From Periplaneta americana (Eukaryota > Arthropoda > Insecta > Blattodea > Blattidae): a DNA stretch of 64,000 bases. The stretch spans positions 165,444,102-165,508,101 of the forward strand of contig NC_091132.1 of NCBI RefSeq assembly GCF_040183065.1. The letters are read 5' to 3'. Positions 1,041 to 46,972 of this stretch are shown here, piece by piece (the stretch's first letter is position 1; every line of letters begins with the position of its first letter). The notes beneath the pieces were generated by a model. It did not search any database. It saw only the letters and a program-made list of their open reading frames with translations, and was not told the origin of the DNA. The translations under genes were made by a program, and so were the position numbers.

Positions 1041-1337
1041 TACATCTAACTTGATGATAGATGGAAAGCAATTGTTTGTATAGGGTCTACATTTGGAGTC
1101 TGATTAGTGAAATATGTTACTAGGCAGTGATGGATGTAATGGATTAGGAAAGGAATTTGCCACACTGCTTATGAAAATAAATATAGAAGTTGTAAGAAAA
1201 TCATTTTCGGGTTCTTGTGTGATAAAAGGGTTAAAAAAAACTGATGGAAGCAGGATGTGGTGACAACAGTAGTGAAAATACTGGAGAATTAGTAGCAACA
1301 GCGAAATGTATCGAAATACAAAGGAGCAGTTGTGCTG

Positions 1338-1346
1338 TATAAATAG
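1338..1346 (+). promoter_or_regulatory. TATA-like motif in duplicated block 1
   Basis: TATAAATAG lies inside the duplicated block and is kept exactly in copy 2 at 35137-35145. A candidate core promoter for a non-coding first exon of the zinc-finger gene. Transcript support is not available here. Confidence 0.35.
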
Positions 1347-2071
1347 CGTTGGAGATGTCTGGCGCAAGACTACAAAAGTTCAAAACAAAGATACTAATTT
1401 TATACTAGACAGAAGAGTAGAAGTGAATATATGTTCTTTTACGTGTAAGTAGTAAAAATAATTTGAAGAAATCTATTATCTCTAGAATATGTGGAAATTT
1501 CAGGCTCTTGTGAGTTGGTTTTATCAGCTTATAATTTTATAAAAATAATATAAAAATGGTAAGAATTTGTAATTGTAACTACTAAAACAAAGCTGGTACT
1601 GTGGATTGGTTCATGAATTGAATTGCAGCTGATGGTTTGTGTGTTCTTCATGAGAAATATATCTTTGAGATGAAAAGCAAAATTGTATTAAAACAATAAC
1701 GTATATTTAAAATTCGATCATTTCAAAGATAAAGTAAATATGCATTAAAGGAATGATCATTCCAGTGGCTAGACAATCTGCAAAAGTTCCGTTGCCTATT
1801 AGAACACATTCTAACAAAAACTCTGTGAAATATGAATAATAGAAAATCTTAACGATCCGTCAGATTGGGTTGGCATGTTCGTAAATGTAGACAAATGTGA
1901 TAAATTGCTGTCATATTGATGCCTTACTGACACTCTGTAACTATAATTACTACTATTATATTCTAAAACAATGATGAGGAATAAAATACGAACATAACCA
2001 GCTGCTAGGTTAGTGTGGAGTTTGTTCTTCTTCTGTTAAGTCATTAACTTTTTCAAATCCTACAATATTTT

Positions 2072-2342
2072 CCCTTATTGTATTTTTTATTTTATTGGGT
2101 TATTTTACGACGCTGTATCAACATCTAGGTTATTTAGCGTCTGAATGAAATGAAGGTGATAATGCCGGTGAAATGAGTCCGGGGTCCAGCACCGAAAGTT
2201 GCTCGTATTGGGTTGAGGCAAAACCCCGGAAAAAACCTCAACCAGGTAACTTGCCCCGACCGAGATTCGAACTCGGGCCACTTGGTTTTGCGGCCAGACG
2301 CGCTGACCGTTACTCCACAGGTGTGGACCCCTTATTGTATTT
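2072..2342 (-). mobile_element. SINE family A inserted in duplicated block, with 14-bp TSD
   Basis: The SINE body runs 2086-2328 in reverse orientation. Read on the minus strand it has the head GTGGAGTAACGGTCAGCGCG, a B box around GAGTTCGAATCTC, then GGTTGAGG and the CAGCGTCGTAAAATAACCC tail region. It is flanked by the 14-bp direct repeat CCCTTATTGTATTT at 2072-2085 and 2329-2342. The homologous site at about 35880 in copy 2 has one uninterrupted TCTTATTGTATTT, so it is an empty site. Confidence 0.92.
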
Positions 2343-2684
2343 ACATTGCATAGCTAAATACCCAATACACAATATCATTTGCTTACATGTGCTTTCGTAA
2401 GATGTCTCATCCTCTATTATTGTAAAGTAGTGACTAGATTTTACACGGCTACAATTTTATGAAAATGAAGGAGGGTTGGGGACAAATTGTTGCAGATATC
2501 ATTGCAAGTATGCATTGCAATATGTTGTATAACGACGTCTTCTAGAATTGGATACTTTAAAGTAGAAGGGTGCAAAGTGCCAAAATAAAACATTTGAGAT
2601 AAGATAAAAAAACCTAGCTATAAGAGTAATTGTACACATATTTGTGTCATTTTTTTTTTACTGATAGAAAACAGCAATAGTACA

Positions 2685-3671
2685 GTGTTTACACAGTCTA
2701 CTATATACAGTCGCGAAGCTCAATATGTAGTAAAAATGCAAACATGGGTAGTTGCCTACCACTAGGATCGCTACTATCGTCTCATCATCGCAGATCTCTC
2801 TCGTACCAGACGACAAAATATGTTACACTTTTGTTGTCGTGTTTTTTTGGAAAAATTAACACCTTCCTTCCATTATTGAAATATTAAATGCATAAAGTTA
2901 ATTTATTATTTTAATGAAGTATATTAAATTCCACCATAAACTCGAAGATACCTGCAAGAAATAGGTTAATATTTTTTTTGTTTGTGCAAAACGAACTGAA
3001 ATTTACTATAATCGCTTCACTCATTCAAGATTATAGCGATATTTAACTATGAAACCAATAAATATTAATTTGCATTTCCCTTTACAGCAATAATAATGGA
3101 AATATGAATTAATGGAATAACTTACGTGTACCGGTACTTGTAGTGTAGGCTTACGTAGTTGACAAAGTGGGATGAGGTTAAGCAATAATAATCACACCAG
3201 AATTGGAAATAAAACGTGATCAATAAATTTTATTGTAACAGACTTTTTCTACGTCTCTAGTAAAGTAACAAATAAAAATGACAACAAAATTAACAGCTAT
3301 AATTAAAAACATATCCTTTGAAAAAAAAAGTAGGCCTAAGCAATAATAATCCCACCAGAATTGAAAATAAAACGTGATCAATAAATTTCATTAAAACAAA
3401 CTTAATTTTTCTACGTCTCTAGTATAATATTATTGTTCCAATTATTGTATTTTAGCCATTAACATTTTCATTACAACCAATAACGAACATTTCACAAGCA
3501 TCAATGTGAAATACGCAACGAGCTAGCACTCGATGGAAATACGACACAGTCCAAAGTCGACCATGGATAGTCTATTGTTTCTAGTTGCTAGCTGCTTGGA
3601 GCGCTTTATCACGAGATTTGCAAAAAATCACCTCAAGCTTCGCGACTGAATATAGTAGACTGTGGTGTTTA
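2685..3671. mobile_element. TIR element of the CACAGTCTAC family, with 7-bp TSD
   Basis: The element at 2692-3664 has near-perfect ~28-bp inverted ends starting CACAGTCTACTATATACAGT. It is flanked by GTGTTTA at 2685-2691 and 3665-3671. It shares internal sequence (GGCGATAGTAGCGATCCT, reverse here) with copies at 11079-11197 and 57039-57221. It is longer than the 57-kb copy because of about 800 bp of extra AT-rich sequence. No transposase frame is present, so it is non-autonomous. Confidence 0.8.
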
Positions 3672-3973
3672 CTCATTAATAATAGTGGTATGTACAAATA
3701 TTATTTCTCCATATTTAATTACATAACACAGATTGTGAAAAGGGTTAAGTAATGGGTACAGTTGCAGTCGAATGGTGCAAAGTCCTATACCTATTTTTTC
3801 CTATTCTGGAGAAATTTTTACTCCCATATCTGCCTGTAGAACTGCCTATGCTCCTCATTTGGAAGATAGGATGTCATTGCTAGTAGATCCCCCTTCTTTT
3901 CTTCAGTAATTTGCCTATTTTATGCTTTAACTTGAAACAATGCTCACTGCACATCTTTCATGTTTTTTTTTTT

Positions 3974-4748: not shown

Positions 4749-4850
4749 TAATTTCGTTTTCTATGATTTTGGCACTTTGCACCTTTCTACTTTAAAGCAT
4801 CCAATTAACCTCACAAATAAATTATAAATTTGTTAACTTGTATTATACAA

Positions 4851-4970
4851 TGCTGGGTAACTTTCGGTGCTGGACCCCGGACTCATTTCACCGGCATTAT
4901 CACCTTCATTTCATCCAGACGCCAAATAACCTACATGTTGATACAGCGTCGTAAAATAACCCAATAAAAA
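4851..4970 (+). mobile_element. SINE family A, 5'-truncated
   Basis: Only the 3' body is present (TGCTGGGTAACTTTCGGTGC through CAGCGTCGTAAAATAACCC and an A-rich end); the tRNA head is missing. It lies just outside the right end of the TIR element. Confidence 0.85.
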
Positions 4971-5352
4971 TTCTTAATTGCATTCTCTTCAACACTAGAC
5001 AGTACTCAAGAATGTGTGTATATTAGTTACCCTGTAAGACGTTGTTATACGTTTCGGACAATATTTTTAAGAAAGCTATGAGCTTCCTATCGATATGGCG
5101 ATAGTTTTTTTTTATAAAGCATTTAGTAGATCCATTTAATCTTGTAATCTGTAATACTCAGTTTCAATTCGTTGGGACGTGAAGGATGTTCATGTAGCCG
5201 AGTTATGACATATTACTCTTCGCTTACTTGCACTCATTCTTGAAATTGCCGATTAATAAACGTTCTTAAATTTTATATAAGCTAATTGTTAACTATTTTA
5301 ACTTACTAGGTTGAGGGATAACCGAAGGAAAAGAATTAAACAAGTAAATGTC
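4971..5352. other. No gene seen
   Basis: AT-rich intergenic sequence with no recognised repeat or coding frame. Confidence 0.5.
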
Positions 5353-6795
5353 CAGAGCCTTCTTCAGTTACAAGCCGGAGCCATTCGTCGGCAACACTGT
5401 AATTAACTGTCAACCGGAAGTCTACTTTCCATAACACGTGTTTGTGCTAATGCCGATTTTCAATGTAAATTAATGTTACAATATAAGTGTGTGTCGATGG
5501 AATTATGTTTGCGGTCGTACCAAACAAGACAATAAATGAAAATATGGCTGCAGTCGTTAGCAATTTTTACGGTTATTATTAATGACAAAGTGATAGACAA
5601 TTCTTCTAAATATTAAATATTGTAAAAACTACATTCTTATAGTCTTACTTGTGGTTTGTGGTGTATCAAAATTCTGGTCAAATTTTTGGGTCTCGCCTGC
5701 TATATCAATAAAGTTACGCCTTGATTTTCAAGTTCATTGTAAACAGCTGTTTTGTGATCTCATAAATGTTACAGTTTTGTTGAAGATTCTGAATGCCTGC
5801 TATACGTCAGAACTACCTATAATTTGTAGGTGCGTAAACTGAATTTGTTCGTTTTCAAGGTTTGTTTATTAATATTACTTCTTTTGCAATAAATTAGTTA
5901 TAAACATGTTTCTTTTCACTTTAGTATTTACAAGATTTATAGTCACTGTGTTTACTCTAATTGGCACATTCTTAATAGATGATGTGTTTTGTTACGTATT
6001 ATGTTTAAGGTATGTTTCTTAATTTTTACATATATGTTTATGCTTGGCCTAACTGTATTTACATCCTCATACTTCATTATAATATGTCAGAAGTTTCCTC
6101 TGTTTACATTTTTATTTTATTTGCATAATTTACATTCTTAGCTTGTTTTCTGGAGTTGTATTTATTTAAAATTATATTTTAAAAAGTTTATAACAAATAA
6201 TTAAGGATAACGGTATTGTTATAGTGAGTGGCCAGGTGTAAGCTAAAACTGGCTTCCTGGACATCTGAAATATTTATAGAAAAACATGAGAGATAATCAC
6301 ATGAAATTAAAATTGTGTGATATCCCAGACCTTTACGTGAGATGCAAAACAACATCAAGTGGCAAAACATTGTCAATTTACTAGCCACATAATGGTTAAT
6401 TGATTGGAATAGGGTATTGCGAAAGTACGTCGTTATTTGATTTATTTCTGATACAAGTAACATTTCTTTAAGTATTTATTTATTTTGTCTTGTACCATGA
6501 ATAAAATACACGTATGCTTTTAATTTTGTTAAATTATAAGTGGCTGTACTTACACGGTATTCTGAAACTCAAATAAAATACCATTTCGGATTCCGTAATA
6601 AATTACGTACATCAATACACTGAATCTTGATCATATGCACTTAGTTTCGTATCACTTAATGTCGAAAATGTACATGTGAGAACGAAATCAAAGCACTAAA
6701 ACGTCAAAGGTCATGCCTTTATTTCGCCTCCATCCGCCTCCACTCAGCGTTGCCAAACCTACCCATGCTCCGGCTTGTAACTGAAGAAGGCTCTG
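5353..6795. mobile_element. Non-autonomous element with inverted ends CAGAGCCTTCTTCAG
   Basis: The left end CAGAGCCTTCTTCAGTTACA is repeated inverted at 6766-6795 (TGTAACTGAAGAAGGCTCTG). Further inward lie GGCAACACTG (about 5391) and CAGCGTTGCC (about 6742), also inverted. About 1.4 kb of AT-rich sequence without coding potential lies between. No matching target duplication was found, so a hAT affinity, suggested by the CAGAG start, is weak. Confidence 0.65.
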
Positions 6796-7210
6796 AAGTC
6801 TCCCAACCAGTAAATAGATGAAACCAGTCCCACTCATTTACGGTCAGACATGCTAACTGTTACATCACTGAGGCGGATGAATTTGCTGAAATTCTATATT
6901 CTGACAACATCTAATACTGTTTCATTGAATGGATAGAAATTTTAATCTTGCCGTGTATTTAATAACCCAGTCTGCCAGGCAAAATTATAACTTACGCTAT
7001 GACTAAAGCTACAGAGCATAGAGATTCCTTTCTCTTTCAGGATAATGATAATAATTAATATTTCTTTCTTTCCAATATTGTGAACGATTTGGAAATGTCA
7101 GCTTTGTTTTCCTGATAGTTTCAGTGCGAGGTTTTGAGGTAAGGGTTTCTCTGTAAAATTACAGATAATACCAATATAGATTTTGTCATGATAATGCTTA
7201 CTATTAAGTG
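6796..7210. other. No gene seen
   Basis: No recognisable feature. Confidence 0.5.
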
Positions 7211-7560
7211 CAGGGTTGCCAGATGTCCCCATATGACGGGACATATCCCGATTTTCATATAAAATTCCCGAGTTCTGCTTCGATTCTGTGTGGGACGCAA
7301 GAAGTCCCTCCTTTAAAAAATTAACGTCACTTGTATAATTGTATCGTTACCTAGTAACTATTTTGTCCTAGGCATGAATAATTACATCAAATTGAAATTA
7401 ATTTTCTTAACAATTTAGGTTTTCATATTGGAAAAAACGAATATTTTGGCAAGTGTAAGGTTTGTAACAGCTAATTCAGTGGTGAATATGATATTTCTAA
7501 ACCTTTAAAAAAAGAGACGTTCATCCCAAATGCAGGCCAAAGAGAATGGAAAAAAGCTTG
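7211..7560 (+). pseudogene. Possible hAT element 5' end with BED-like remnant
   Basis: The start CAGGGTTGCCAGATGTCCC looks like a hAT terminus. About 220 bp in, one frame (about 7430-7556) reads GKCKVCNS, a stop codon, then FSGEYDISKPLKKETF and GQREWKKAC. This is a C-x2-C spacing and a layout seen in BED-type zinc fingers at the N-terminus of hAT transposases. At least two stop codons interrupt it and no other end was found. Treat it as a tentative decayed fragment. Confidence 0.35.
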
Positions 7561-7892
7561 TTGAAAGCGTTGAAGTCCAGTAATATATATGGAGGAAGCT
7601 CTGAAAATGTATACCGCACGGTACTGTATGTTAAATTATGGGTTTCGAGGAGTAATATGGTACCGGTAAGTCACAAAATAAATATGAATTCAGGTTTCAA
7701 TAAATTTTATGTTAGGGCCTAATGTTATCAATTAATAAACATTGAAATTTAAATACAGTATTTTGTCACATCTGGTGCCATCTTTTGGAATTTGTGCTTT
7801 AGAATTAATAATAACCAGCTGGGGAAATCTATGAGTCTAGCCAGAGCCTTAACTAAAGAAGGTTCTGGTCTACTCGTTGCTGTGATCATAGC

Positions 7893-8342
7893 CTCGTCAT
7901 CAGTGTTGCCAACACATAAATTGTATTCCCGTCAGTATAACACCTAGAAATCCGTCAGAATCCGTCAAAATTAAAAATATAACACCCAATAAATAAATAA
8001 ATGAATAAATAAATATATAAAGCAAATTTTAACACAACTTACTTACAAATCCTGATTAAAATAGGCTAATAATTCGTCAACATCTTACTTGATTACGAGG
8101 AAATCTGAAACGGGATTTTAAACATAGTACGGAACAGGCAGGGCTGTTCAAATAAAAAGCAAAATCTTCCAAAAATTAAACAATTAAAAATGACAACAGC
8201 TAAAAATGTCAAAAGACGATGTAAATCGTAATTTCCGCCAGAAAATCCGTCACCCGTCAAAGCCATTTTTTTCCCGTCCGCTACATTGAAATTCCGTCAA
8301 TTTTGACGGAATTTCCGTCCAGTTGGCAACACTGCTCGTCAT
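7893..8342. mobile_element. hAT MITE with perfect 8-bp TSD
   Basis: The element occupies 7901-8334. It starts CAGTGTTGCCAAC, ends GTTGGCAACACTG, and is flanked by identical CTCGTCAT at 7893-7900 and 8335-8342. Inside, CCGTCA words recur (AATCCGTCA, TTCCGTCAA, TTTGACGGA) near both ends. No coding sequence is present. The 8-bp duplication and CAGTG start are hAT hallmarks. Confidence 0.92.
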
Positions 8343-8508
8343 GTTAGAGCCCTCCCTTTCACGGCCCTTTTGATACCTGCGCTTGGCCGTTGTTTTGGGG
8401 CGTTTATCTTTGTCTCGATTGCTGAAGTGTTACTTTCTTGAGAAGGTGTGTTGCAACTTCTTACATTTAGTAATACAATAGAGATATGAGATCGAGATAT
8501 GCAATTTC

Positions 8509-8660
8509 GGGATAATTCAGTATACAGATTCCTCACTGACACTTATACTCTAAAATACTAAAAAGAGCAGATTACTCTGCGTTTGTCGAATCCGCAGCAT
8601 CGTGCTTACGAAAGGCACTTTTAAGTGCCAATAATTTATTGTGCATAGCACTTCCATTTT
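8509..8660. repeat. Dispersed repeat (GTTTGTCGAAT family)
   Basis: It shares TCAGTATAC, ACTAAAAAGAGCAGAT, GTTTGTCGAAT, GCTTACG and AGTGCCAATAATTTA in the same order with 19330-19475. A partial third copy is at 9083-9240. Confidence 0.7.
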
Positions 8661-10620
8661 GTGAATAATTGGTAATTTCATAGAAGACGGGCACTTGGTT
8701 GAATATAGTAAGTATCACCAACTTCTTTATTTCAGAGTTAAATGTTAGTGATCTTTTAGTAACTTTTACATGTTCTAGGTTTTTTATACTAGGTGTCGCC
8801 GTGATTTTCTTTTAATTTTATTGGTAATAGTCATTTGTTCTAGAATTTTCGTTAATTTTGAGTGGATAATGACGTTATCAATTGTTCTTGCTTGTTTCAT
8901 GTAAGTGGTGTTATGTTTTGTCTGATAGCTAAAGCTATTGAAAGTTTCTCATTTTATGATTTTTGTGATTTTCTTTCGATTTGATTGGTTACAATTGTCA
9001 TTTATTCTAGAATTTTCATTAATTTTGAATGGATAATGACGTCAGTTGTTCTTGGTTATTTGACGTGAGTGGTGTTACATTGTAGATTTGTCTGCATTTG
9101 TCGAATGCGCATCATCATGCTTACGAAAAGGGACTTTTCTGTGCCAATAATTTATTTTGTGTGCACAAAGTTGGAATTTTGAAGTAAGAGGGAAAGGAAG
9201 GAATCCGTGTTCTGAAATTTATCTATTATATTTTGTGTTGATTTTGGTTTAGTTCTTTCGGTGGTGAATAAGGATTGTGTTGAATGTTGAGGAGAAAACT
9301 GTTTTTCTGTGGTTTAAAGGAATTGTTTACTGAATTTTCTGTAGAAATTAAGGTGTAATAAGTGTTCGAAGAGAATTTCATTTAGTGTAAACAAGTGGTT
9401 TATTTATGCAAAGTTGACTGTACGACAAAGTGTTGGTTATTTCTTTGCTATCTGCATGGTTTGGTTAGATTGCTTTAAAGCCTGTGTCATTTATACTGGA
9501 AGTGAAGAGGTTGTCGTTGAAGACGTCGATGAGAATAGAATTTTATTTGATAAGGTGATACATTATTATGTTTTGTTTTGTGTTTTAGTGATTTTTGGGG
9601 GTAAAGTGCGAACGAAAACTGCCAGAAAAGTACTACCAACTATGAAGTTTGAATGCCACGAAACGCCAAAAAAATCAAAGGAAAAAAATGAAATATATTT
9701 TCATTTTTTTTTCAGGGCTTGTTCTTCTTTAAAAATTTTAATACATATTTGATTTTTTATCTTTGATTTTGCGATGTTTGGTGAGATTTGGACTTCATAG
9801 TTGGCAGAACGTTTTTGGTAGTTTTCGTCAACCATGTTGGATTTTGCCCGTCTTCTAGGAAATTACTTAATAATTTTGTCGCTGAACGACCGCGCTCTTG
9901 TACGAATACAGCATTAATATTTTTCATTAGATTCGCATTGCTGGCAAGACGTGTGGTATAAAAAGGGTGATCATGTTAAGGGCGGGTGAGTTAATGTCTA
10001 AAGCATTGAGGAAGGTCTCTAGAACACAGGTAAAAAACTAAAACTTGCGTCGTAATTTTGCAAGAAATCAAGATCAACTGTACAGATAAGTTTGTAAAGT
10101 ATTCATTCGAGCAAAATACTTCCCTATTTTTGTGGGTATAGAGTTGGTTCTATATGCAAAAATAAGGAACGCCTTAAATATCCAAACTTAACTTGTCACA
10201 GATGCCCATAATCTTTTCGCTGTAAGAAAAATCCTAATATAAACAATAGCACGTGACTGAAGTGAAGCTTCATTGGCCGCTGTTTGGCGCCATGGATTCT
10301 CAGTAAGTGTTCCCGCCTACTGTTGTACATTCTGTTTCATGTTAAACATTTCCCGTTACTCGTCAAGTAGGCCTAATCTCATTACTATGCATTCGTTTGC
10401 TTAGGAAACATTTACTTTATAATTACTGTAATTAAAACTCACATAACTTATTATATACATTTAAGACTACTTGTTTTTCTCCGCTTTTGAGAGGGTTTAA
10501 TAACCAAACACACCGAGGATGCAGAAGCCATACTTCAGTATCACGTGCTTTTTCAATTATCATTTATTTTTTATTTTATGTTTCAAGATATTGGTTACAA
10601 TGTGAGTTTATAAAGTAATA
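8661..10620. other. No gene seen; partial dispersed repeat at 9083-9240
   Basis: A second, partial copy of the GTTTGTCGAAT repeat lies at about 9083-9240. An imperfect direct repeat also links 8810-8880 and 8965-9045 (GTGATTTTCTTT, TAGAATTTTCRTTAATTTTGA, GGATAATGACGT). A 112-codon open frame at 9414-9752 has biased AT composition and no recognised domain, and was not called. Confidence 0.5.
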
Positions 10621-10689
10621 TTTTAATATTATATTATATATTATACATATTATATTTATATTATATTATATATTGTATTGTATTGTATT

Positions 10690-10944
10690 ATATTATATCA
10701 TATCGTATCATATATCATATATCATATCATATCATATATCATATCATATCATATCATATCATATCATATCATATCATATCATATATCATATCATATCATA
10801 TCATATCATATCATATGTCATATCATATGTCATATCATATCATATCATATCATATCATATGTCATATCATATATCATATCATATCATATCATATCATATC
10901 ATATCATATCATATCATATCATATCATATCATATCATATCATAT
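10690..10944. repeat. (TATCA)n pentanucleotide microsatellite
   Basis: About 255 bp of nearly pure ATATC repeats, with a few GTCAT variants around 10815-10865. The unit contains no stop codon in any forward frame, so all three frames are open across it. These are not genes. Confidence 0.97.
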
Positions 10945-11078
10945 ACTTTATGAAAATAATATAGCCTATAAACCTTTTGTATTTCATATTTCAATAGTGA
11001 AAGGAAGGTGTTAATTTTTCAAAAGAACACGATATCGAAAGAACAATACATTTTATCGTCTGCTAGGGAAAGGGTCTG

Positions 11079-11197
11079 TGATGAGGCGATAGTAGCGATC
11101 CTGGTGGTTAGCAACTATCTATGGATGCATATTTTAACTGTCTATGTATGCATATTTAGTAAGTATTGAGCTTCGTCACTGTATATACTAGACTGTG
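11079..11197. mobile_element. CACAGTCTAC-family MITE, one end only
   Basis: It carries the internal motif TGATGAGGCGATAGTAGCG and the terminal sequence GAGCTTCGTCACTGTATATA ending in GACTGTG, as in the 57039-57221 copy. The opposite end is degraded or lost. It sits about 60 bp upstream of gene 1's first coding exon. Confidence 0.75.
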
Positions 11198-11264
11198 ATT
11201 ATACGTTTTCCGAACAGCTCACGTTCTGCAAATGAATGTCAATTTCTTAATTCTTTCAGTTACG

Positions 11265-11357
11265 ATGAACGTGATCAAGGCGGAACTCGAAGTCGACCCT
11301 CTGGCTCTAGAAACAAGTGACGACTCCGATGAGAAGGAGAAAAAATGTGTATTAAAG
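11265..11357 (+). CDS. Gene 1 coding exon 1
   Basis: 31 codons beginning MNVIKAELEVDPLALE and ending before GTATATTAC. The acceptor TTCTTTCAG ends at 11259, five bases before the ATG, so a leader exon must lie upstream. The start is chosen because it aligns with MDVIKKEPEFVPLAV of gene 2. An upstream ATG at 11233 lies in the intron. It contains one psi-K-x-E motif (IKAE). Confidence 0.82.
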
Positions 11358-14300
11358 GTATATTACAAGCTATTGTATCTGTTTTGTTCTTGCGACATTT
11401 GTCATTTAGCTACCTTATGACAGAAGGTATACACCTATCAAATTATAGTTAACAGAGTTAGCCAGACTGAAAAAAAAAATGGCCTGGAGATCCTATTCTC
11501 TTTTGTCATCATATCGCATAGTTTTCTGTATGTTTCACGTATATATAAGCAATTGAGAGTTGATCAAATCGTGTAATTTAACGTACAGTTTACAGTTAGA
11601 TTTATTGTATGTTTATTTTATAAACCATACATACTTTCTAATTTTTCACATGTCCAATGCAATATGTTAGTAATAAACTAGGTCATCTTTTAAGTAAAAG
11701 TTCACAATTACAAGTACATATGTAGAATGCATAAGGTGCAGCAGATGTGGCGTGAACTTCAAGTTGAGACTGTTTATATATATTATTTTAATGTACCGAA
11801 GTACATATGATATTTCCATGCAGATATTCTGCGTCATCATGCAATGAAAGAGTAATGGAACAGAGAAAAATTCTCTCCGGCGCCGGGATTTGAACCCAGG
11901 TTTTCAGCTGTACGTGCTGATGCTTTATCCACTAAGGTCCACACCTGTGGAGTAACGGTCAGCGCGTCTGGCTGCGAAACCAGGTGGCCTGGGTTCGAAT
12001 CCCGGTCGGGGCAAGTTACCTGGTTGAGGTTTTTTCCGGGGTTTTCCCTCAACCCAACAGAATTGTCTCAGATTAAGTTCCAACTCTTGGGTTTCCTCTA
12101 GTGGCCGCCCACTGCACTACGTCATAGATGTCTATGAACGTAGGACTGAAGTCCACACATGTTCTGAGGTGCACTCGTTATGAGTGACTAAGTTGGCTGG
12201 GATCCAACGGAATAAGCGCCGTCTTATATCACGAAGTGATTTACGCATATCATATATATTATTTTAATGTACCGAAGTATATATGATATTTCCATGCAGA
12301 TATTCTGCGTCATCTTACAATGAAAGAGTAATGGAACAGAGAAAAATTCTCTCCGGCGCCTGGATTTGAACCTGGGTTTTCAGCTCTATGTGCTGATGCT
12401 TTATCCACTAAGCCCCACCGGATACCCACCCCGGCATCGGACAGAATCATCTCAGATTAAAATGTTAATATCAATGTAAAGAATTAATTTCTTATATTGC
12501 AATTTTTTTTGCATTTTTCGACATTTTGAACTAATTAGTAATTTTTTTTTTTCGGCATTTTTTGGTCATTTTTAATACTCTGAAGAACTTCTAGATCATT
12601 TGAAATGCATTTTACTTTTCTTCTTTACCGATAGGTCTGTTAAATCTTTTTCTAACCAAATAGGTCAGTAGTGATTACCTAGTGAATAAGTTAATAACAG
12701 TGAAGTTTGAGTTTTATAGTTTGGAACAGACTGTAGAGTCCATCTCTCATTCCACTGAGGGCTTCACCTCACACAATAGCTTAGTTTAAGAGACGGCTTT
12801 GAATGCTGCTGTTCTTTTGTCGGTACGAGGGTGTCCTTAGAATTTGTTTGGAAGGGGGGAAACTTTCACCATGTCCTGGACAGGACATGGTTCGGAAGGG
12901 ATGTCTACTGTAGTACACAGTATTTTTAACACAAAGATTGTAAGAATGCACGCTGCACCCAAAATTTGTTTTGTCTTTCACACTCCCCCATCTGTAAGAT
13001 CTGATAACAAAAGTGAACAACGAAAAGAGGAAGAGACGGAGAATGAAGGCGGTGACATGGACCATCACCGATTGAAACACATTGTAAACTCACATTAAAA
13101 TCTATTTTTTTCCCTTAAAACTTGCATTTTTTTTTTGCATGCCTTTTCCTTTACTTAACCAAATTCCAGGAAGTTGCCTTCTCTCTCCGAGATTTGCAGG
13201 GCAGTCATTGAAACAAGGTGACTGATTTTTAAGATGTTGTTGTACGAGTACTTTGAATAATATTTAAATGTTATCTTCTTTTAATTTGATGCCATTTTTC
13301 CACTAGTTTAAGGGCATTTTAATGATCATTTTAAGTAGATTTTTAGGTCATCAACATCCACTCCCTACGCTTCCACCGTGTATAGTCCATACTACGGAAG
13401 GTCCATATGATAAAACGTCCATAAAGTCCAAATGTCCATATTGTCAAAATGTCCATACATTGAAAATGTCCATGTACTAAATGTCCATACGACAGAAAGA
13501 CAATATGATAAAACGTCAGTTAGGTCAAAATGTCCATAGTGTCACACGTCCATAATGTCCAAGTTCAAAGGAAAATTCTGCTTGAATAGAACATAATAAG
13601 GGCGCGCTTCTGAAAAGGGTAGCAGCATTTCCCCTAAGGTTAGAGCTCAGTTTAGGTGTGTGTGTATTAATAGAAAATTAGTGGCTAGAAAATAGTGAGA
13701 ATAGGACGCATGTTTATATGACATTTTTTTCGATTAATACACACATACCTTAACTGAGCTCTAACCTTAGGGGAAATGCCGCTGCCCCTGTTCGGAAGCG
13801 CACCCCATAATAAATTTTATTCCATAACTCGTACAAATAAGTTATTAATCTTCGGGAACCGGAGCCCCACTTTTAAGATGGTAACTAATACTTTTAAGAT
13901 TTAAGAGAATTTCTCCCTTTTCTTTGTACCTGTTGTAGTTTCTCACAATCTGGAGAATTTGTCTCTGTTTCGTCAAATACGTTTCATTCCCGTCTCTTTA
14001 ATTTGTGTATGCCTCACTCTTGCTTGCAATATTTGTGTCCAAATTCCATTTTCTTCGCGCTTTAGTCACTGTATAAATCGCCAAGTGGATGGATGTACAG
14101 CCATCATGCGTTGAAGAAGATTGTTCCAGTCTTCTACCGCGTTGTTTGTGTGCTGCATGCCTTTCAGCTTGGGAGGTTCATGTTCCTGTATCGCCAATAT
14201 ATTTTTGTCCTATCTCTATTAAAGTCATGATGTTGGTATAGGTATGCACGAAGAGAAAGAAGTGGCTTACCCTTCTATGATGGCACTAACTGAGGATTTC

Positions 14301-17300
14301 GTTCCGTCTTTAAGAAATTCAGTTCTGATTAGTTCTGCATTTGAAAATTTATACATAGGTTACTTTAACTACCATAAACAATGGATATAGTGTACATTAT
14401 AGAGCTATGGACATTATGACTCTGGACATCAGAGTGAAGTGGACATTATACAACTATGGACATTTTGACCCTGGACATCAGAGTGAAGTGGACATTATAC
14501 TACTATGGACATTTTGACTCGGACATCAGAGTGAAGTGGACATTATACTACTATGGACATTTTGACTCTGGACATCAGAGTGAAGTGGACATTACACTAC
14601 TATGGACATTATGACTCTGGACATCAAAGAGAAGTGGACATTATACTACTATGGACATTTTGACTCTGGACATCAGAGTGAAGTGGACATTATACTACTA
14701 TGGACATTTTGACTCTGGACATCAGTGTGAAGTGGACATTATACTACTATGGACATTTTGACTCTGGACATCAGAGTGAAGTGGACATTATACTACTATG
14801 GACATTTTGACTCTGGACATCAGAGTGAAGTGGACATTATACTACTATGGACATTTTGACTCTGGACATCATTGTGAAGTGGACATTATACTACTATGGA
14901 CATTTTGACTCTGGATATCAGAGTGAAGTGGACATTATACTACTATGGACATTATGACTCTGGACATCAGAGTGAAGTGGACATTATACAACTATGGACA
15001 TTTTGACCCTGGACATCAGAGTGAAGTGGACATTATACTACTATGGACATTTTGACTCTGGACATCAGAGTGAAGTGGACATTATACTACTATGGACATT
15101 TTGACTCTGGACATCAGAGTGAAGTGGACATTATACTACTATGGACATTATGACTCTGGACATCAAAGAGAAGTGGACATTATACTACTATGGACATTTT
15201 GACTCTGGACATCAGAGTGAAGTGGACATTATACTACTATGGACATTTTGACTCTGGACATCAGTGTGAAGTGGACATTATACTACTAAGGACATTTTGA
15301 CTCTGGACATCAGAGTGAAGTGGACATTATACTACTATGGACATTTTGACTCTGGACATCAGAGTGAAGTGGACATTATACTACTATGGACATTTTGACT
15401 CTGGACATCAGTGTGAAGTGGACATTATACTACTATGGACATTTTGACTCTGGATATCAGAGTGAAGTGGACATTATACTACTATGGACATTTTGACTCT
15501 AGACATCAGAGTGAAGTGGACATTATACTACTATGGACATTTTGACTCTGGACATCAGAGTGAAGTGGACATTATACTACTATGGACATTATGACTGGAC
15601 ATCAAAGAGAAGTGGACATTATACTACTATGGACATTTTGACTCTGGACATCAGTGTGAAGTGGACATTATACTACTATGGACATTTTGACTCTGGACAT
15701 CAGAGTGAAGTGGACATTATACTACTATGGACATTTTGACTCTGGACATCAGAGTGATGTGGACATTATACTACTATGGACATTTTGACTCTGGACATCA
15801 GTGTGAAGTGGACATTATACTACTATGGACATTTTGACTCTAGACATCAGAGTGAAGTGGACATTATACTACTATGGACATTTTGACTCTGGACATCAGA
15901 GTGAAGTGGACATTATACTACTATGGACATTATGACTGGACATCAAAGAGAAGTGGACATTATACTACTATGGACATTTTGACTCTGGACATCAGTGTGA
16001 AGTGGACATTATACTACTATGGACATTTTGACTCTGGATATCAGAGTGAAGTGGACATTATACTACTATGGACATTTTGACTCTGGACATCAGTGTGAAG
16101 TGGACATTATACTACTATGGACATTTTGACTCTGGACATCAGAGTGATGTGGACATTATACTACTATGGACATTTTGACTCTGGACATCAGTGTGAAGTG
16201 GACATTATACTACTATGGACATTTTGACTCTAGACATCAGAGTGAAGTGGACATTATACTACTATGGACATTTTGACTCTGGACATCAGAGTGAAGTGGA
16301 CATTATACTACTATGGACATTATGACTGGACATCAAAGAGAAGTGGACATTATACTACTATGGACATTTTGACTCTGGACATCAGAGTGAAGTGGGCATT
16401 ATACTACTATGGACATTTTGACTCTGGACATCAGAGTGAAGTGGACATTATACTACTATGGACATTTTGACTCTGGACATCAGAGTGAAGTGGACATTAT
16501 ACTACTATGGACATTTTGACTCTGGACATCAGAGTGAAGTGGACATTATACTACTATGGACATTTTGACCCTGGACATCAGAGTGAAGTGGACATTATAC
16601 TACTATGGACATTTTGACTCTGGACATCAGAGTGAAGTGGACATTATACTACTATGGACATTTTGACTCTGGACATCAGAGTGAAGTGGACATTATACTA
16701 CTATGGACATTTTGACCCTGGACATCAGAGTGAAGTGGACATTATACTACTATGGACATTTTGACTCTGGACATCAGAGTGAAGTGGACATTATACTACT
16801 ATGGACATTTTGACTCTGGACATCAGAGAGAAGTGGACATTATACTACTATGGACATTTTGACTCTGGACATCAGAGTGAAGTGGACATTATACTACTAT
16901 GGATATTTTGACTCTGGACATCAGAGTGAAGTGGACATTATACTACTATGGACATTTTGACTCTGGACATCAGTGTGAAGTGGACATTATACTACTATGG
17001 ACATTTTGACTCTGGACATCAGTGTGAAGTGGACATTATACTACTATGGACATTTTGACTCTGGACATCAGAGTGAAGAGGACATTATAGAACTATGGAC
17101 ATTTTGACTCTGGACGATTTAACATGGACATTATTCCATGGACATTTTGACATATGGACATTATAATCCTGGACTTAATGTCTGGTAACTGCCCCCTACT
17201 TATGAGTAACGACTCTGTCCCCATAAATCCACCTGATAGAAATTAGCTTGAAATTGACATACGAAACAGAAAAGATAACGTTAGAGACTGAAGAATATAA

Positions 17301-20300: not shown

Positions 20301-21646
20301 GGCATAAGGGTGAAAGCTAACCATTTTTCCCCCAATACTACATATGCTACTGGATTGTGGTGATTTTCTAGTTTGCAGGTTGAATTCCCTTTTGCAAACT
20401 TCGTTTCGAATTCCAAACATGATGTAGAATATAAATCAGATTTTGTTGCACATAGTACAGTATGCAAATTGTTTTCAGATGGAACACCTGGTCTATTATT
20501 TCTACTTTAAGTTCTCGATTCTATTCTGTCTTAAATTTTCTTCTCTAATTTGTTGCCTGATTTGAGGGAGTTAGCCAATGACTGTCGGCTCTTACACATG
20601 AAGTCAACTTTAAAATAGCTAAATAAATGTATTCACGATGTCTTTATGTTTTGTAGGAAGGGAATTTATCGCATCTGGAAGTGACGGACATGAAGGCAGA
20701 ATGTGGGGACAATAATTATGTTATAAAAACAGAGATAAAAGTTGAAAACACCACTCCAGTGCCTACTAGCTTTCCTGTGGTGAAATCTGAAGTTGATGTA
20801 AGTGGTTCTTTATCATTTTATATATTTATAGCAGCAGTGCATTTTACTTATATCGGATCTATTAAGGGGTTACAGGAGTAAAATTTTTAGGAAATATTCA
20901 CCATTTTTTTCCTCCATTACTGTATCTTGTATAATAATGAAAATTGGTAAATATAAAATACTGTCTTTCTACTATATGAAATAAATATCTTTACGATTTT
21001 TTTTTTTTTTTTCAAAATTGTGACAGGTCACTGTGCAGTGATGAAGCCTTTCCCTCATAACTCATAAACTTGTTAACTTTTTCATGATCTCGTTTATTCT
21101 ATTGTTGAAACGCATGTTTACAACATCATTCTCTTTGAAATACATTTCTTAATAAATAATATTTTCTTTTATTTTGTATTAGAAGGAAATAATGATATTT
21201 GATCATTTTTTAAAAAGAATGTATTTTTTATCAGACAATCTATCAAAGATAGAGAAATGATTTAGCATAATATTGTAGATATGACATGCATCAATACAAG
21301 CAAAAAATTTTATCATAGAATGTTGGATAATTTTTAGTTACGAGGGAAATGCTTCATCACTGCACAGAGAATTTTGAAAAAAAAATATATGTGTGTGTGT
21401 GTGTGTAAATTTTTTTTTTAATCGTAAAAAATATTTTTTCATATACAGAATGAGAGTGTTTTACACATACTAATTTTCATTATTGTAAAAGATACAATAA
21501 TGGAGGAAAAAAATGTTGAATATTTCCAAAAATTTATTGCTATAAGGTGTACCTAACACCTTAACAGTCTTGAATATGTTTAACTGTTGTCTCTCTTTTC
21601 AGTATTCTCTAAACTTACACTCCTTTAATTTTTAGATATGAAGTGC

Positions 21647-21726
<80 letters not shown>

Positions 21727-32207: not shown

Positions 32208-32640
32208 TATAAGTGCAAAGACGTTTTCTGAATCTCATAGTGTAGAAAAGCATACCTAGCTACACACAGAAGTGAACGCATTCACTTGTCATATATGTGG
32301 TAAAAAAATTACCGGATTGTCGTAATCAAAAAAAGCTTGGTTTGTTACACACAGGAGACAAGGTTATTCAGTTTTGACTTATATGAAAAATGAATTGGTA
32401 TCTCGTAGTCTCAAAAAACATGTACTCATACACACATGGGAGAAGGTTTTCTGTTGTGATATATGTGGAAAAAAATTTTCGCAATCTGGTAATTTTAAAA
32501 GGGTAGAAAAACCGTTAAGTTTTGATATATGTGGATAGAAATTTTCGGAATCTGGTAATCTAAATAATCATGTATTCGTACAGTTGGGGGGTGGGGGAGG
32601 TTGGAAGAATTCAAAAATGCTATATCCGGAAACACATTTT
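32208..32640 (+). pseudogene. Decayed extension of the zinc-finger array
   Basis: In the original finger frame the sequence continues as AFSCDISAKTFSESHSVEKH, then FTCHICGKKI, KKHVLIHTWEKVFCCDICG, KKFSQSGNF, and SFDICG followed by a stop and KFSESGNLNNHVF. These are at least four more fingers interrupted by stops and shifts. This was coding until the frameshift near 32185 moved the stop forward. Confidence 0.85.
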
Positions 32641-33248
32641 CGTTATCTATCCATAAGAAATAATTTCAAAGTCTCCACATGGAGAGAAAAGCATTTAGTT
32701 GCGATACATATGAAAACCAATTTCCGTAATGGATTAATTTTAAAGCAAATGGACGAGTACACACGTGACAATCTATTTCGATGAGAAATATGTGAAAAAC
32801 AGGTCTTGTAATCTAATAATCATTAAAATTATGAACGCACACACTCTGAATGCATATAACTGCTCTTTGTGGGACACAAATTGTTGTTGGTTCATGAATT
32901 CTGACATTCCAAACAAACACCTTAAGCCAGGCACACAGAATCACCCTTTTCTATAATTTTGTAAAATCATAAGTTGTGATACAATATGAAACCTGATTGA
33001 GGTTGTAGACATTCAGTTTATGACTTACGGTGAGTCATAAAAGGTAAACATGGCTGACTTACAGAAATTATCACTGCTGGATTGATTTTCCTTATATATG
33101 ATCGAGAGAATGGGGAAGTAAACAATTAGAAAAACTGTTGTAAGAGAGGTTGTTGAAGAGAAAGGTGCTAGTAACATTAAAATGGTGACTCCACATATTG
33201 AAACGCATGAAACTGGAAAGAGTGTATCAGTAACACCGTATGAATATC
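32641..33248. other. Intergenic sequence downstream of gene 1
   Basis: Possibly part of the gene 1 3' UTR, with weak finger-like traces to about 32780 (ISIRNNFKVSTWREKHL). No clear AATAAA-type signal was chosen. No other gene seen. Confidence 0.4.
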
Positions 33249-33519
33249 TTACAAGGAGAGGACACGCTCTGTATATCACCGCATTAAATAAGATTGTGTA
33301 AGATGAAAGTACAAGACGTACTGTTTAAAATCATACCTGATATGGGTGGCCAATGACCCCTCCTTTTGGAAATATTGGTTACTGTTTGTGACATACTTCC
33401 GTTACGTGCCTAATAGGGAAATATTATATTATGTAACAGCGTAGCTCATATTGTTGGATGCTGAGTTGTCATCCAGGCAACCCCAGTTTGAATCCTAATG
33501 CCATTTCATTTTTAAAACT

Positions 33520-33524
33520 TGATA

Positions 33525-33566
<42 letters not shown>
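33520..33566. repeat. (ATT)n microsatellite
   Basis: About 15 ATT units, directly upstream of the transposase-like remnant. Confidence 0.95.
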
Positions 33567-33567
<1 letters not shown>

Positions 33568-33569
33568 AC

Positions 33570-34231
33570 CAAAAGGACAATTTGGCCCAAGAGTGCAACG
33601 TCAAGTAGATGAACTCGCTTCTAAATTCGGAAATATATGTGTAACACGTTCTTCATCAGGAAAGCTGACATCTCAATTCCATAAGCAATACCTGGAGAAA
33701 GTAATAAAGACATATGTGAAAGAGCAGCCATTTCTTCTAATTCTGGACTCGTGGGAATTGCAGGTAAATCCTTCTTTGTATAATGAAATATTTACAAATG
33801 AAGAAAATGAAGTAACATGCGACCTTAAAGTGATTTCACCCAAATGTGCTTGATGATGCCAGTCCTGTGATGTTTATCTTTTTAGACAGGTGAAGATTTT
33901 TATCAAATATTTGCAAAATAGCTCTTTCCTTTTACAAACTGGACGACAAATTGCTTCAAGGGAGGATGCCCTCAAAATTCACTCCTTAATTCACTTCCAG
34001 TTGTCAGCTCCTATATTCAAAGCCATGTTGAAGTGTGCGTGGTATGGATCAAAATTAATAAACGAACTAGAAGTGTTTGTGAATGTGAAAGATGTCTGTT
34101 TCGCAGCAGAAGTGCGGAAAAATGTGTGTGACTGTGGACAACCTTCTTTCATTTGCTGTGCATGGTGCAGGAAATATGTATGTTTTATGTGTTTTTATGA
34201 TATTTATCATAATGAAACATGTACAAAATGA
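33570..34231 (+). pseudogene. DDE-type transposase remnant with C-terminal cysteine cluster
   Basis: The frame opens without a start after the ATT tract: KGQFGPRVQRQVDELASKFG, LLILDSWELQVNPSLYNEIF, then CDLKVISPKC followed by two stop codons (33851-33856). The same frame goes on as CDVYLFRQVKIFIKYLQNS and ASREDALKIHSLIHFQLSAP. It ends in a CDCGQPSFICCAWCRKYVCFMCFYDIYH-type cysteine cluster (about 34128-34210). The LILDSW..., PPKC..QPCDV order recalls DDE_1 (pogo-like) catalytic domains, and relatives are familiar as unnamed insect proteins. The N-terminus is missing. The exact superfamily is unsettled. Confidence 0.6.
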
Positions 34232-34831
34232 TGGGGAATAGAAACAGAACAGACACCAGTGACCTGCCTACGTGAGCAATATTTCCTTGTTTATCTTTTA
34301 CAGTGCAATGCTAGTTAATTAGTAATTAGTTTAAAACTTGAAGCGTTCAATACATTGAGAAATATGATATATGTAAATAGATTACTGTGATGACACTATT
34401 AATCTTTATTAAAAGAAAAAAAAATATAGGACCAGTTAAGATTCGAACTCAGGTTCCCTGAATAACAACTCAGCACCAAACCATATGAGCTACTCTTTTA
34501 CACAGTCCAATGCTTCCCTATTAGGCACCTAACGGAAGTATGTCACAAATAATAGCCAATATTTCCAAAATGAGGGGTCATTGGCCACCCATACCAGGTA
34601 TGACTTTAAACAGTACTTCTTGTACTTTCATCTCACACAATCTTATTTCATTCGGTGATATACAGAGCGTGTCCTCTCCTTGTTAATGCTACAGTACGGT
34701 TTTAAATAATGAAACATGTTACAAGATTAAAAATATTGAGTTACATCCACCCAACCTTTGGTAGAAATTATACGAGACACTTATGCCTCTGATCGAGATT
34801 CTGACTGTTATGTACATGTATTATTAGGCTG

Positions 34832-36094
34832 TACATCTGACTTGATTATAGATGTTAGATGGAAAGCAATTGTTTGTATAGGGTCTACATCTGATGTCTG
34901 ATTAGTGAAATATGTTACTAGGCAGTGATGTGTGTAATGGATTAGGAAAGGAATTGGCCACACTGCTTATGGAAATAAATATAAATGTTGTAAGAAAATC
35001 ATTTTGCGGTTTCATGTGTGATAAAAGGGGGAAAAAAAACTGATGGAAGCAGGATGTGGTGACAACAGTAGTGAAAATATTGGGGAATTAGTAGCAACAG
35101 TGAAATGTATCGAAACATCAAGGATCAGTTGTGCGGTATAAATAGCGTAGGCGATGTCTGGCGCAAGACTACAAAAGTTGAAAACAAAGGTATACTAATT
35201 TTAAACTAGACAGAAGAGCAGAAGTGAATATAATATGTTCTTTTACGTGTAAGTAGTAAAAATAATTTGAAGAAATCTATTATTATGTCTAGAATATGTG
35301 GAAATTTCAGGCCCTTGTGAGTTGGTTTTGTCAGATTATAATTTTGTAAAAATAATACAAAAATGTTAAGAATTTGTAATTGTAACTATAAAAGAAATCT
35401 GTTACTGTGGTTTGGTTCATGAATTGAATTGTAGCTGATGGTTTGTGTGTTCTTCATGAAAATTATCTTTCAGATGAAAAGGAAAGCTGTATTAAAACAA
35501 AGACGTATATTTAAGATTCGGTAATTTCAAAGATAAAGTAAATATGCATTAAAGGAATGGTTATTCCAGTAGCTAGACAAACTGCATGAGTTCCGTTGCC
35601 TATTAGAACACATTCTAACAAAAACTCTGTGAAATAACAATAGAAAATCTCAACGATCCTCAAACTGGGTTGGCATGTTCGTAAATGTAGACAAATGTGA
35701 TAAATTGCTGTCATATTGGTGCCTTACTGACACTCTGTAACTATAATTACTACTATTAAATTCTAAAACAATGACGATGAAAAAAATACGAACATAACCA
35801 GCTGATAGGTTAGTGTGGAGTCTGTTCTTCTTCTGTTAAGTCATTAACAGTTACAAATTCTACATTATCTTTTCTTATTGTATTTACATTGCATAGCTAA
35901 ATACCTAATGCACAATATCATTAGCTTACATGTGCTTTCGTAATATTTCTCATCGCCTATTATTGTAAAGTAGTGACCACGTTTTACATGGCCTACAATT
36001 TTATGGAAATGAAGGAGGGTTGGGAACAAATTGTTGCAGATATCATTGCAAGTATGCATTGCAATATGTTATATAACGACGTCTTGTAGAATCA
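34832..36094 (+). repeat. Duplicated block, copy 2 (upstream of gene 2)
   Basis: Homologous to 1041-2546 without the SINE. Order and spacing of all landmarks are kept. It ends at CGACGTCTTGTAGAAT, exactly where the TIR element begins in copy 1 (2546). It lies about 1.8 kb upstream of gene 2's first coding exon. Confidence 0.82.
35137..35145 (+). promoter_or_regulatory. TATA-like motif in duplicated block 2
   Basis: TATAAATAG as in copy 1. About 65 bp downstream is AAACAAAG|GTATAC, a plausible splice donor for a non-coding first exon. Copy 1 has AAACAAAGATAC there, which lacks the GT. Confidence 0.35.
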
Positions 36095-37876: not shown

Positions 37877-37969
37877 ATGGATGTAATCAAGAAGGAACCT
37901 GAGTTTGTCCCTTTGGCTGTGCAGTGCAGTGATGAGACTAATGCAGCTGAGCAGATGCTCATACCAGAG
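37877..37969 (+). CDS. Gene 2 coding exon 1 (zinc-finger paralogue)
   Basis: 31 codons (MDVIKKEPEFVPLAVQCSDE...MLIPE) between a splice acceptor ending five bases before the ATG and the donor GTAAACTG. Length, phase and acceptor-to-ATG distance equal those of gene 1 exon 1, and the start matches MNVIKAELEVDPLALE. The flanking ACGTTCTGCA motif upstream is shared too. It carries one psi-K-x-E (IKKE). Later exons: only 46832-46972 was found. Confidence 0.8.
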
Positions 37970-38310: not shown

Positions 38311-38334
38311 ACTAGTCTTTATAGAACAGGAGGG

Positions 38335-39303: not shown

Positions 39304-39491
39304 ATAGAAGGAAACAGGCAAAATTGAAATTCTTACAGGATCCAATCGTGGAGAATAGAGATAATTATTTCAATGAAAGACGGAAGCAAGTCGTACACTT
39401 ATTAATAAAAAGAGAGATTACTTGAAGGAAAAACTGAATGAGATAGAAACAAATAGTAAGAATAAAAACATTCGAGATTTATATAAGGGTA

Positions 39492-39764
39492 TAAAGGAAT
39501 TTTTTTTATTGGGTTATTTTACGACGCTGTATCAACATCTAGGTTATTTAGCGTCTGAATGATATGAAGGTGATAATGCCGGTGAAATGAGTCCGGAGTC
39601 CAGCACCGAAAGTTACCCAGCATTTGCTCGTATTGGGTTGAGGGAAAACCCCGGAAAAAACCTCAACCAGGTAACTTGCCCCGACCGGGATTCGAACCCG
39701 GGCCACCTGGTTTCGCAGCCAGACGCGCTGACCGTTACTCCACAGGTGTGGACTAAAGGAATTT
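39492..39764 (-). mobile_element. SINE family A inside the LINE, with 11-bp TSD
   Basis: The SINE at 39503-39753 is reversed, with complete head (minus-strand GTCCACACCTGTGGAGTAAC and CCCGGGTTCGAATCCCGG) and body. It is flanked by TAAAGGAATTT at 39492-39502 and 39754-39764. It splits the LINE codons for YKGIKEF, so it is younger than the LINE copy. Confidence 0.93.
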
Positions 39765-45374: not shown

Positions 45375-45428
45375 ATTTATTTATTTATTTGTTTATTTGT
45401 TTGTTTGTTTGCTTGTTTGCTTGTTTGT

Positions 45429-45523
<95 letters not shown>

Positions 45524-45568
45524 TTTGTTTGTTTGTTTGTTTGTTTGTTTGTTTGTTTGTTTGCTTGT

Positions 45569-45601
<33 letters not shown>

Positions 45602-46300
45602 AGGGCAAAGCCCCAATTACAATAGACAGTACAGATATTTGTTAAAAAAAACATAGAATTGCATATAACATGAAAAAAGAGATGAAACAGATACAAGTGT
45701 AAATACAAATTAAAATGGAAAATGAGAAAAGGAAAAAAAAAAAGAACAGACAAATAGATGCTACCTAAATAAAAGACACAGATATAGATATAAATGAAAA
45801 ATACAAAATAAAATTAATGAAAAATAGTTAAGTATAGATATCATAGCCAAAAATGTAAAATGTAGCTGTAATTGGCAAATTACGAGTAACAAATAGCAAT
45901 ATTATATAAAATCAACTACTTTCAGTATATTAATAAGAAAATTTTTGTATTACATGTAAGAAATTCAGAAATCTATATCCCATGTTTTACATATTTCATT
46001 GAAATTTGAACACATTTTTAACCTTGGTTAATTTTTATGTGATGAATTGTTTGGTTTTTTTATAATATAACAATTGACGATTTCTTAAATGTGATGTTCT
46101 AGCATTAATCTGGATTTGTGATAATATTTCGCTGTTATCCAGTAGACCGTTGAATATTTTATACAATAAAAGTTGCTCAGCAAGTAATCTACGACTTCCA
46201 AGAGACATTAAATTAAATTCAGCAAGTAGATTGTTTGACGATAAAAGCAAAGTAATGCGTTACATACCACACGGACATGAAAAATTTTACAATAATACTC
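45375..46300 (-). mobile_element. LINE 3' end with long (TAAA)n tail, reverse
   Basis: Read on the minus strand, 46250-46035 encodes NLMSLGSRRLLAEQLLLYKI and FNGLLDNSEILSQI, typical of the C-terminal end of Jockey/CR1-type ORF2 (RR..D..LYK..NG..D...LL). It passes GGGGCTTTGCCCTG and then runs into the AAATAAAT tail at 45600-45375. 5'-truncated. Confidence 0.65.
45376..45600. repeat. (TTTA)n/(TTTG)n microsatellite
   Basis: About 55 tetranucleotide units in alternating TTTA and TTTG blocks. It probably grew from the LINE poly(AAAT) tail. Confidence 0.95.
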
Positions 46301-46831
46301 TTCAGTGGCGTATTGTGGGAAAATAAGTTCAGTTATATCCTGTACTTATGTAGTAAGTACACAGTAGGCCTATGCATATATTATATCCCTAATTTGACAA
46401 ATAAACTTTAGTTGAACTGAAATTATTATACTACAATTTTGTCAAGCTAATATATATTGATTTATTTCATTAACAATTCATTAGATTCCAATAAATTTGG
46501 TATAAAACGACACATCTATTAGGCTTCTGTCTGAAGAAGCCAGTACTATAATCAGTTCTGTGTTCTACCACCAATAATACCGTTTTTTGCGTTTACTGAA
46601 AAATTTAGCTTTCATGGCATGTGCCGTTTCTGCAATCCCCGATTCGTATGTACAGTAGATGTTAATGTGTTGTTCTCATTTTACTATCCATTAATTTTTT
46701 TATACGTATTTCGCATACGTCTTACTTAGCAATCAACCCAATATGAGGACCAAAGTGCAGCATGTAGCATTTGGTATCACGTCCATACAAGCCGTCATAT
46801 TTTACATGTTCATTATATCTGTCTTCTGCAG

Positions 46832-46972
46832 AAAGGGAATTTATTGGATCTCCACGTGGCTGGAATAAAGACGGAAATGTTGGACCACAGCTATTATGAT
46901 CCCACATGAGATATGAAAGTTGAGGAAACTGCAGTGCCAACTAATTTTGTTACGGCAAAGTGTAAACCTGAG
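46832..46972 (+). pseudogene. Gene 2 exon homologous to gene 1 exon 3, with in-frame TGA
   Basis: 141 bp between the acceptor GTCTTCTGCAG and donor GTATGTTG, the same length and phase as 20657-20797. It reads KGNLLDLHVAGIKTEMLDHS, YYDPT, then TGA (46907-46909) and DMKVEETAVPTNFVTAKCKPE. It keeps IKTE and MKVE. The codon before DMK would be expected to be sense, so gene 2 is probably broken, or this assembly has one wrong base. Confidence 0.78.

Follow-up and report, generated by a model that had tools for sequence, protein, structure and literature searches.

Zinc-finger gene families of the kind described here are usually found in clusters, as set out in portions of two published accounts (PMC3701560; PMC5363842), and a portion of a third describes the ZAD zinc-finger genes as abundant and evolutionarily dynamic in insects (PMC7655104). 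The Periplaneta americana assembly PAMFEO1 comprises 3.23 Gb in 17 chromosome scaffolds and 74 unplaced sequences, 91 in all, as given in a portion of its genome paper (PMC12774602); in the portion of that paper's main text at hand the term 'zinc finger' has 0 occurrences. Among titles on the P. americana genome and zinc finger expansion, and on cockroach C2H2 tandem duplication, we found no description of the cluster reported here. The window, meaning the whole 64,000-nucleotide stretch of DNA that was analysed, is C16:165444102-165508101. Together with the DNA to its left it holds three genes, gene 0, gene 1 and gene 2, all on the + strand and within 65 kb, and the locus has the makings of a tandem C2H2 cluster: finger arrays, same-orientation neighbours and a recent duplication that took flanks with it. 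We consider it likely (probability roughly 0.85) that this is a head-to-tail C2H2 cluster in which a unit of ~31-33 kb, made up of a gene, its finger array and a 3′ flank that includes a repeated block, was duplicated in tandem, with gene 2 uninvolved.

The repeated block is ~1.26 kb long and occurs twice in the window on the same strand, much as a preliminary description of this DNA had reported; the two copies are 91-93% identical.

1036..2548, + strand, block A (split), the tail of the previous unit; 90.8% and 92.7% identical to 34827-36092
34683..36092, + strand, block B, most likely 3′ flank belonging to gene 1, from sequence matches and gene 0/gene 1 collinearity

Block A at 1036-2085 aligns with block B at 34827-35885 at 90.8% identity (E = 0.0 as printed), and 2331-2548 aligns with 35874-36092 at 92.7% (E 1.4e-87). 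Block A is the longer copy solely because a 245-bp insert splits it, a repeat at 2086-2330 that also matches window positions 39500-39753 and 51851-51626. To the left of 34827 the homology of block B extends to 34683, which is the edge of a transposon. Outside the window there is a third copy (C16:165441217-165442959), whose end is 1.1 kb short of the window start; the 2,177 bases between it and block A gave no finger match.

Gene 1 lies between the two window copies and could be followed through to its finger exon.

11265..11357, + strand, first coding exon of gene 1, 31 codons, acceptor AG five bases before the ATG
18683..18766, + strand, possible further exon of gene 1, 28 codons, also in gene 0, proposed from splice sites and open frame
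20657..20797, + strand, 47-codon exon of gene 1, from sequence
26786..26868, + strand, exon of gene 1 preceding the finger exon, from sequence
30194..32207, + strand, zinc-finger exon of gene 1, ending in a stop at 32205-32207 and counting 20 fingers under a strict pattern, from Pfam and open frame

Spliced, the model stays open for 804 codons and encodes 20 fingers; leaving out the exon at 18683-18766 shortens it to 776 codons. Its C2H2 arrays have TGEKP-like linkers (Pfam zf-C2H2 3.8e-88, zf-H2C2_2 4.1e-115). A Pfam search with the first 150 residues of the model returned no family at E up to 1; gene 1 therefore has no KRAB, and the same search gave no ZAD.

Gene 2 begins 1.8 kb after block B (36092 to 37877) and gene 1 begins 8.7 kb after block A (2548 to 11265), in agreement with the distances of about 9 kb and 1.8 kb given previously.

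37877..37969, + strand, first coding exon of gene 2, 31 codons, of another subfamily by the exon-1 tree, acceptor five bases before the ATG
46832..46972, + strand, 47-codon exon of gene 2, with an in-frame TGA at codon 26 (46907-46909)

As observed previously, each first coding exon counts 31 codons and has its acceptor five bases ahead of the ATG, and a 47-codon exon is common to both genes, at these positions. A retroelement occupies 38245-41475, between the first two exons of gene 2, and no finger array of gene 2 was found over 46 kb, up to window coordinate 84000 (the window plus loci L058 and L059). Because of the in-frame TGA and the missing array, gene 2 is most likely a relic, unless its finger array lies beyond that stretch or the TGA reflects a mistake in the assembly.

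The partner of gene 1 in the duplication is gene 0, not gene 2. Gene 0 is found in three loci that adjoin the window on the left (L055-L057), with its exon 1 at C16:165418949, 25 kb before the window. As protein this exon is 93% identical to exon 1 of gene 1, and later exons match too; the finger array of gene 0 is broken by in-frame stops and a frameshift. We observe that the units around the two genes are collinear over C16:165410518-165442959 (unit 0) and window positions 4970-35616 (unit 1), with aligned segments covering 14,354 of the 30,647 bases and the remainder differing by insertions and deletions.

4970..36092, + strand, unit 1 of the tandem duplication, from collinearity with unit 0; the right edge is the end of the A/B homology
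32630..33251, + strand, 3′ flank of gene 1, collinear with the gene 0 3′ flank, 85.1% identical to C16:165440596-165441219
33252..34682, no strand assigned, transposon in the 3′ flank of gene 1, with ~248-bp inverted ends and a TTA target duplication

Identity is 79-82% at 4970-5353 and 84% at 6801-7662 upstream, 91.9% around exon 1 (10931-11776), and 92.3%, 91.7% and 90.6% in the introns at 18482-20984, 25610-27069 and 27068-28784, respectively. The chain also takes in the finger exon, and beyond the transposon it runs into the block itself (34918-35616 at 88.7%). The inverted arms of the transposon (33251-33498 and 34436-34683) are 88% identical and unit 0 has an empty site at the matching position; the element entered the 3′ flank after the duplication. 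The tandem junction, which is the left edge of unit 1, falls somewhere from 2549 to 4970.

We compared the ages of these parts by Jukes-Cantor distances, which count substitutions only. Ten gene 0/gene 1 segments gave 0.099, 0.069, 0.117, 0.050, 0.051, 0.094, 0.066, 0.070, 0.079 and 0.160, so that 8 of 10 fall within 0.05-0.10 in a range of 0.050-0.160; the last of these, the 3′ flank at 0.160, is more diverged than the others, which counts against the tandem-duplication reading. The block distances are 0.072 for B and the third copy, 0.078 and 0.072 for A and B, and 0.088 for A and the third copy. Exon 1 differs by 0.091 between gene 0 and gene 1 and by 0.64 between gene 1 and gene 2, where 40 of its 93 bases differ. 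The blocks thus fit the gene 0/gene 1 duplication in age and are far younger than the split of gene 1 from gene 2. A tree built from 32 exon-1 sequences makes gene 0 and gene 1 sisters (0.933) and places gene 2 in another clade, across a branch of 0.40 (1.000). The sequences were collected by similarity to gene 1 or gene 2, which makes the split into two groups partly a matter of construction, though not the sister pair; 7 of 38 loci (L023, L027, L028, L029, L034, L040 and L044), whose sequences departed from the start pattern required, were excluded. The two groups also differ in splice context (ttctttcag-TTACG-ATG and tgttacag-TCGCG-ATG), and gene 1 and gene 2 are absent from each other's exon-1 matches among the best 150 scored. 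Gene 2 is an older paralogue from another subfamily that stands outside the duplication.

The preliminary description had derived gene 1 and gene 2 from one ancestral locus, an upstream block plus a gene, duplicated in tandem. Of this, the duplication of a zinc-finger gene with adjoining DNA stands, as the collinearity of gene 0 and gene 1 demonstrates, and the pairing does not. Block and exon do come in the same order and on the same strand before both genes, and the exons are equal in size, but an exon-1 distance of 0.64, albeit over a short exon, is set against 0.072-0.088 for the blocks, the sister of gene 1 is gene 0, and a 31-kb collinearity with gene 0 refutes the pairing unless the stretch is misassembled. 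On exon-1 distance and tree we rejected a duplication that pairs gene 1 with gene 2, and we give the model next to no probability. Blocks that are alike before exons that are unlike could also result from gene conversion that homogenises the upstream regions of the two genes while the genes diverge. However, many kilobases of intron in gene 0 and gene 1 show the same distances as the blocks, and the third copy is nearly as similar; since a single duplication accounts for block, intron and third-copy distances alike, conversion is unnecessary and we hold it to be exceedingly improbable.

Using the whole genome (3,231,669,367 bases in 91 sequences), we found at least 49 matches to the whole block, with the best 40 of 1388 first-look candidates scored. 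A dispersed repeat makes up the first ~130 bp of the block (1363 candidates, best 40 scored, with matches on C1 to C17), and two short pieces of the window at 977-1174 match C1 and C10. For the core without the first ~130 bp (34972-35730) all 25 candidates were scored, giving 29 matches. Merging the pieces from both searches gave 24 places, 18 on C16 (all at 149.8-182.6 Mb), 2 on C17 (below 16.5 Mb) and one each on C9, C1, C4 and C3. An exon-1 consensus has 973 first-look candidates in the genome, of which the best 150 were scored; the matches to it and to exon 1 of gene 1 and of gene 2, among the best 150 scored in each case, crowd into C16:150-182 Mb and C17:0-17 Mb. Altogether, 20 of the 24 block places lie inside two zinc-finger regions that make up ~1.5% of the genome, the bounds of the regions having been drawn after the data were seen and the places being related by descent, so that a binomial value computed for this concentration should not be read as a true probability. 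A many-copy repeat unrelated to zinc-finger genes, the finding by which the preliminary description said it would fall, is therefore not what the block's core and its distribution reveal.

The same description had taken the block for the upstream region of the gene that follows it. Collinearity, finger matches 5′ of the block and matches to the adjoining flank all point the other way: the block is most likely the 3′ flank of the preceding gene, because at 11 of the 14 places read fingers precede it on the same strand, with 0 reverse matches. In one of these (L072) there is a single finger match, and 1.8-3.8 kb separate the finger array from the block in L065, L069 and the third copy. A single alignment (63%) in an old C17 copy, L066, connects the finger array with the beginning of the block core. 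As a control, 0 of 38 exon-1 loci of ~3 kb each had a finger match, these loci surrounding first exons and not representing random cluster DNA. Against this assignment, the remaining three places (block A, C17:3802060 and C16:159773405) had no finger match before the block. The flank at 32640-33240, searched alone, has 20 genome matches and precedes seven further block copies in the same orientation. Six of these matches are at C16:165440607, 164382773, 164404639, 154576228 and 150131835 and C17:15033157; the seventh falls 3 kb ahead of the copy at C16:159773405. It is not limited to the block, since ~8 matches are at places without one (C17:12095364, C16:160626057, C17:20027292, C5, C15 twice, C12 and C10); and 8 of the 24 block places, outside the 14 read for fingers, have no match to it, which also counts against a 3′ flank. 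These eight are C16:161915475, 163421129, 163263712, 163290500 and 178220187, C1:66564364, C4:130224033 and C3:176137080. Polyadenylation-type hexamers (AATAAA or ATTAAA) are present in all 6 flanks listed, scored for presence and not for position. On sequence grounds the block may be the 3′ UTR of the preceding gene. A right edge at 36005 that old copies seemed to have in common was rejected as the end of an element or transcript, as four of five old copies compared (L060, L061, L063 and L007, not L062) run on together past it; this continuation makes the edge a rearrangement of the A/B lineage.

We consider it unlikely that the block serves the following gene as a promoter or noncoding first exon, held in place by selection. 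Four of the places read do have a same-strand first coding exon no more than 7 kb beyond the block: gene 2, 1.8 kb after block B, and L061, L062 and L063. However, such an exon is expected anyway in a head-to-tail array, so that array order and a promoter predict it equally. Within the window the distance from block to exon varies from 1.8 to 8.7 kb; on the other side, homology runs unbroken into a finger array; the copies before gene 1 travelled with the preceding gene; and old copies pass the A/B right edge, so that the block within its present limits does not form a unit. Two landings of a transposable element would explain the dispersed matches of the first ~130 bp and of the pieces at 977-1174. 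A dispersed-repeat origin holds for those ~130 bp and was rejected for the core, whose 25 candidates in 3.23 Gb and concentration in two regions speak against an element, as does homology that in older copies runs past the block on both sides; the whole block as a transposon has hardly any probability left. Very unlikely too is that gene 1 has co-opted the copied 3′ flank in front of it, block A with the third copy, as its leader exon or regulatory region. If so, tandem duplication would pass the tail of one gene to the next gene as a control region.

In the tandem-duplication history that we favour, collinearity shows that a unit of ~31-33 kb (gene 0/gene 1, finger array and 3′ flank) was duplicated in tandem, and the 1.26-kb block is most likely part of the duplicated 3′ flank, as matches here and in older copies support. 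The molecular cause was probably unequal crossing-over or replication-based tandem duplication. Because the tail of each gene precedes the head of the next, the block copies give the appearance of upstream regions belonging to gene 1 and gene 2. A simple duplication would place one block between gene 0 and gene 1, but both the third copy and block A lie there, and a further event may have left the two. Informative sites, counted without the first ~90 bases of the block (which are misaligned), group A with B at 4, B with the third copy at 4 and A with the third copy at 1 when L060 is the outgroup, and at 5, 4 and 1, respectively, with L061. The idea that block B is a hybrid between block A and the third copy finds no support, the sites being few and scattered. 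The two intergenic copies would fit either a third unit that has lost its gene or a local duplication near the main event in time.

Overall, this is an ordinary tandem duplication, the normal way in which a zinc-finger cluster grows, and it shows with clear landmarks how a very large zinc-finger family of an insect has grown. It also carries a caution: where genes stand head to tail, a block repeated in front of two of them may be the tail of the genes preceding them, and only the age of the block set against the age of each neighbour tells to which gene it belongs. As far as the portions of the sources cited at the outset describe them, mammalian KRAB-zinc-finger clusters resemble this locus in having many clustered poly-finger genes and in growing by tandem duplication. 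Unlike KRAB-zinc-finger genes, gene 1 is an insect gene without KRAB and with another N-terminal leader, of acidic exons. Likewise, so far as the portion consulted goes, it resembles the insect ZAD zinc-finger genes as a member of an abundant and dynamic insect zinc-finger family, and differs from them in that its first 150 residues have no ZAD match.

Two mobile elements of gene 1, a zinc-finger gene on the forward strand, could be placed in time by comparison with its sister, gene 0, to the left of the window. The mobile and repetitive features that we observed are as follows.

33252-34682, transposon in the 3′ flank of gene 1, with inverted ends of ~248 bp (88% alike) and a TTA target duplication
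25618-26412, transposase-like reading frame
23877-24326, minus strand, transposase-like reading frame
57364-57816, minus strand, transposase-like reading frame
38245-41475, pieces of a non-LTR retroelement
14389-17115, minisatellite in a gene 1 intron, with ~56 copies of a 49-bp unit (95% match)
22052-23008, tandem repeat with ~4.8 copies of a ~197-bp unit (89% match)

The corresponding site of the gene 0 unit is without the transposon, so the insertion came after the duplication that yielded genes 0 and 1. The three reading frames matched, in the order listed, Transposase_1, DDE_Tnp_1_7, and HTH_Tnp_Tc3_2; since the first lies within a stretch of gene 1 that is also found in gene 0, it is older than that duplication. 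In gene 2, a paralogue from another subfamily, the retroelement pieces, which contain endonuclease and reverse transcriptase domains, separate exon 1 from the 47-codon exon.

Genes 0 and 1 also share an exon-like stretch of 28 codons (18683-18766) that lies between the 31- and 47-codon exons, keeps the frame, and is perhaps an alternative exon.

The zinc-finger family is very large, with regions at 150-182 Mb of C16 (the chromosome scaffold that holds the window), 0-17 Mb of C17, and 34-37 Mb of C12. Searching the genome with the exon-1 consensus yielded 973 first-look candidates, and each of the 150 that were scored had E ≤ 4.6e-6.
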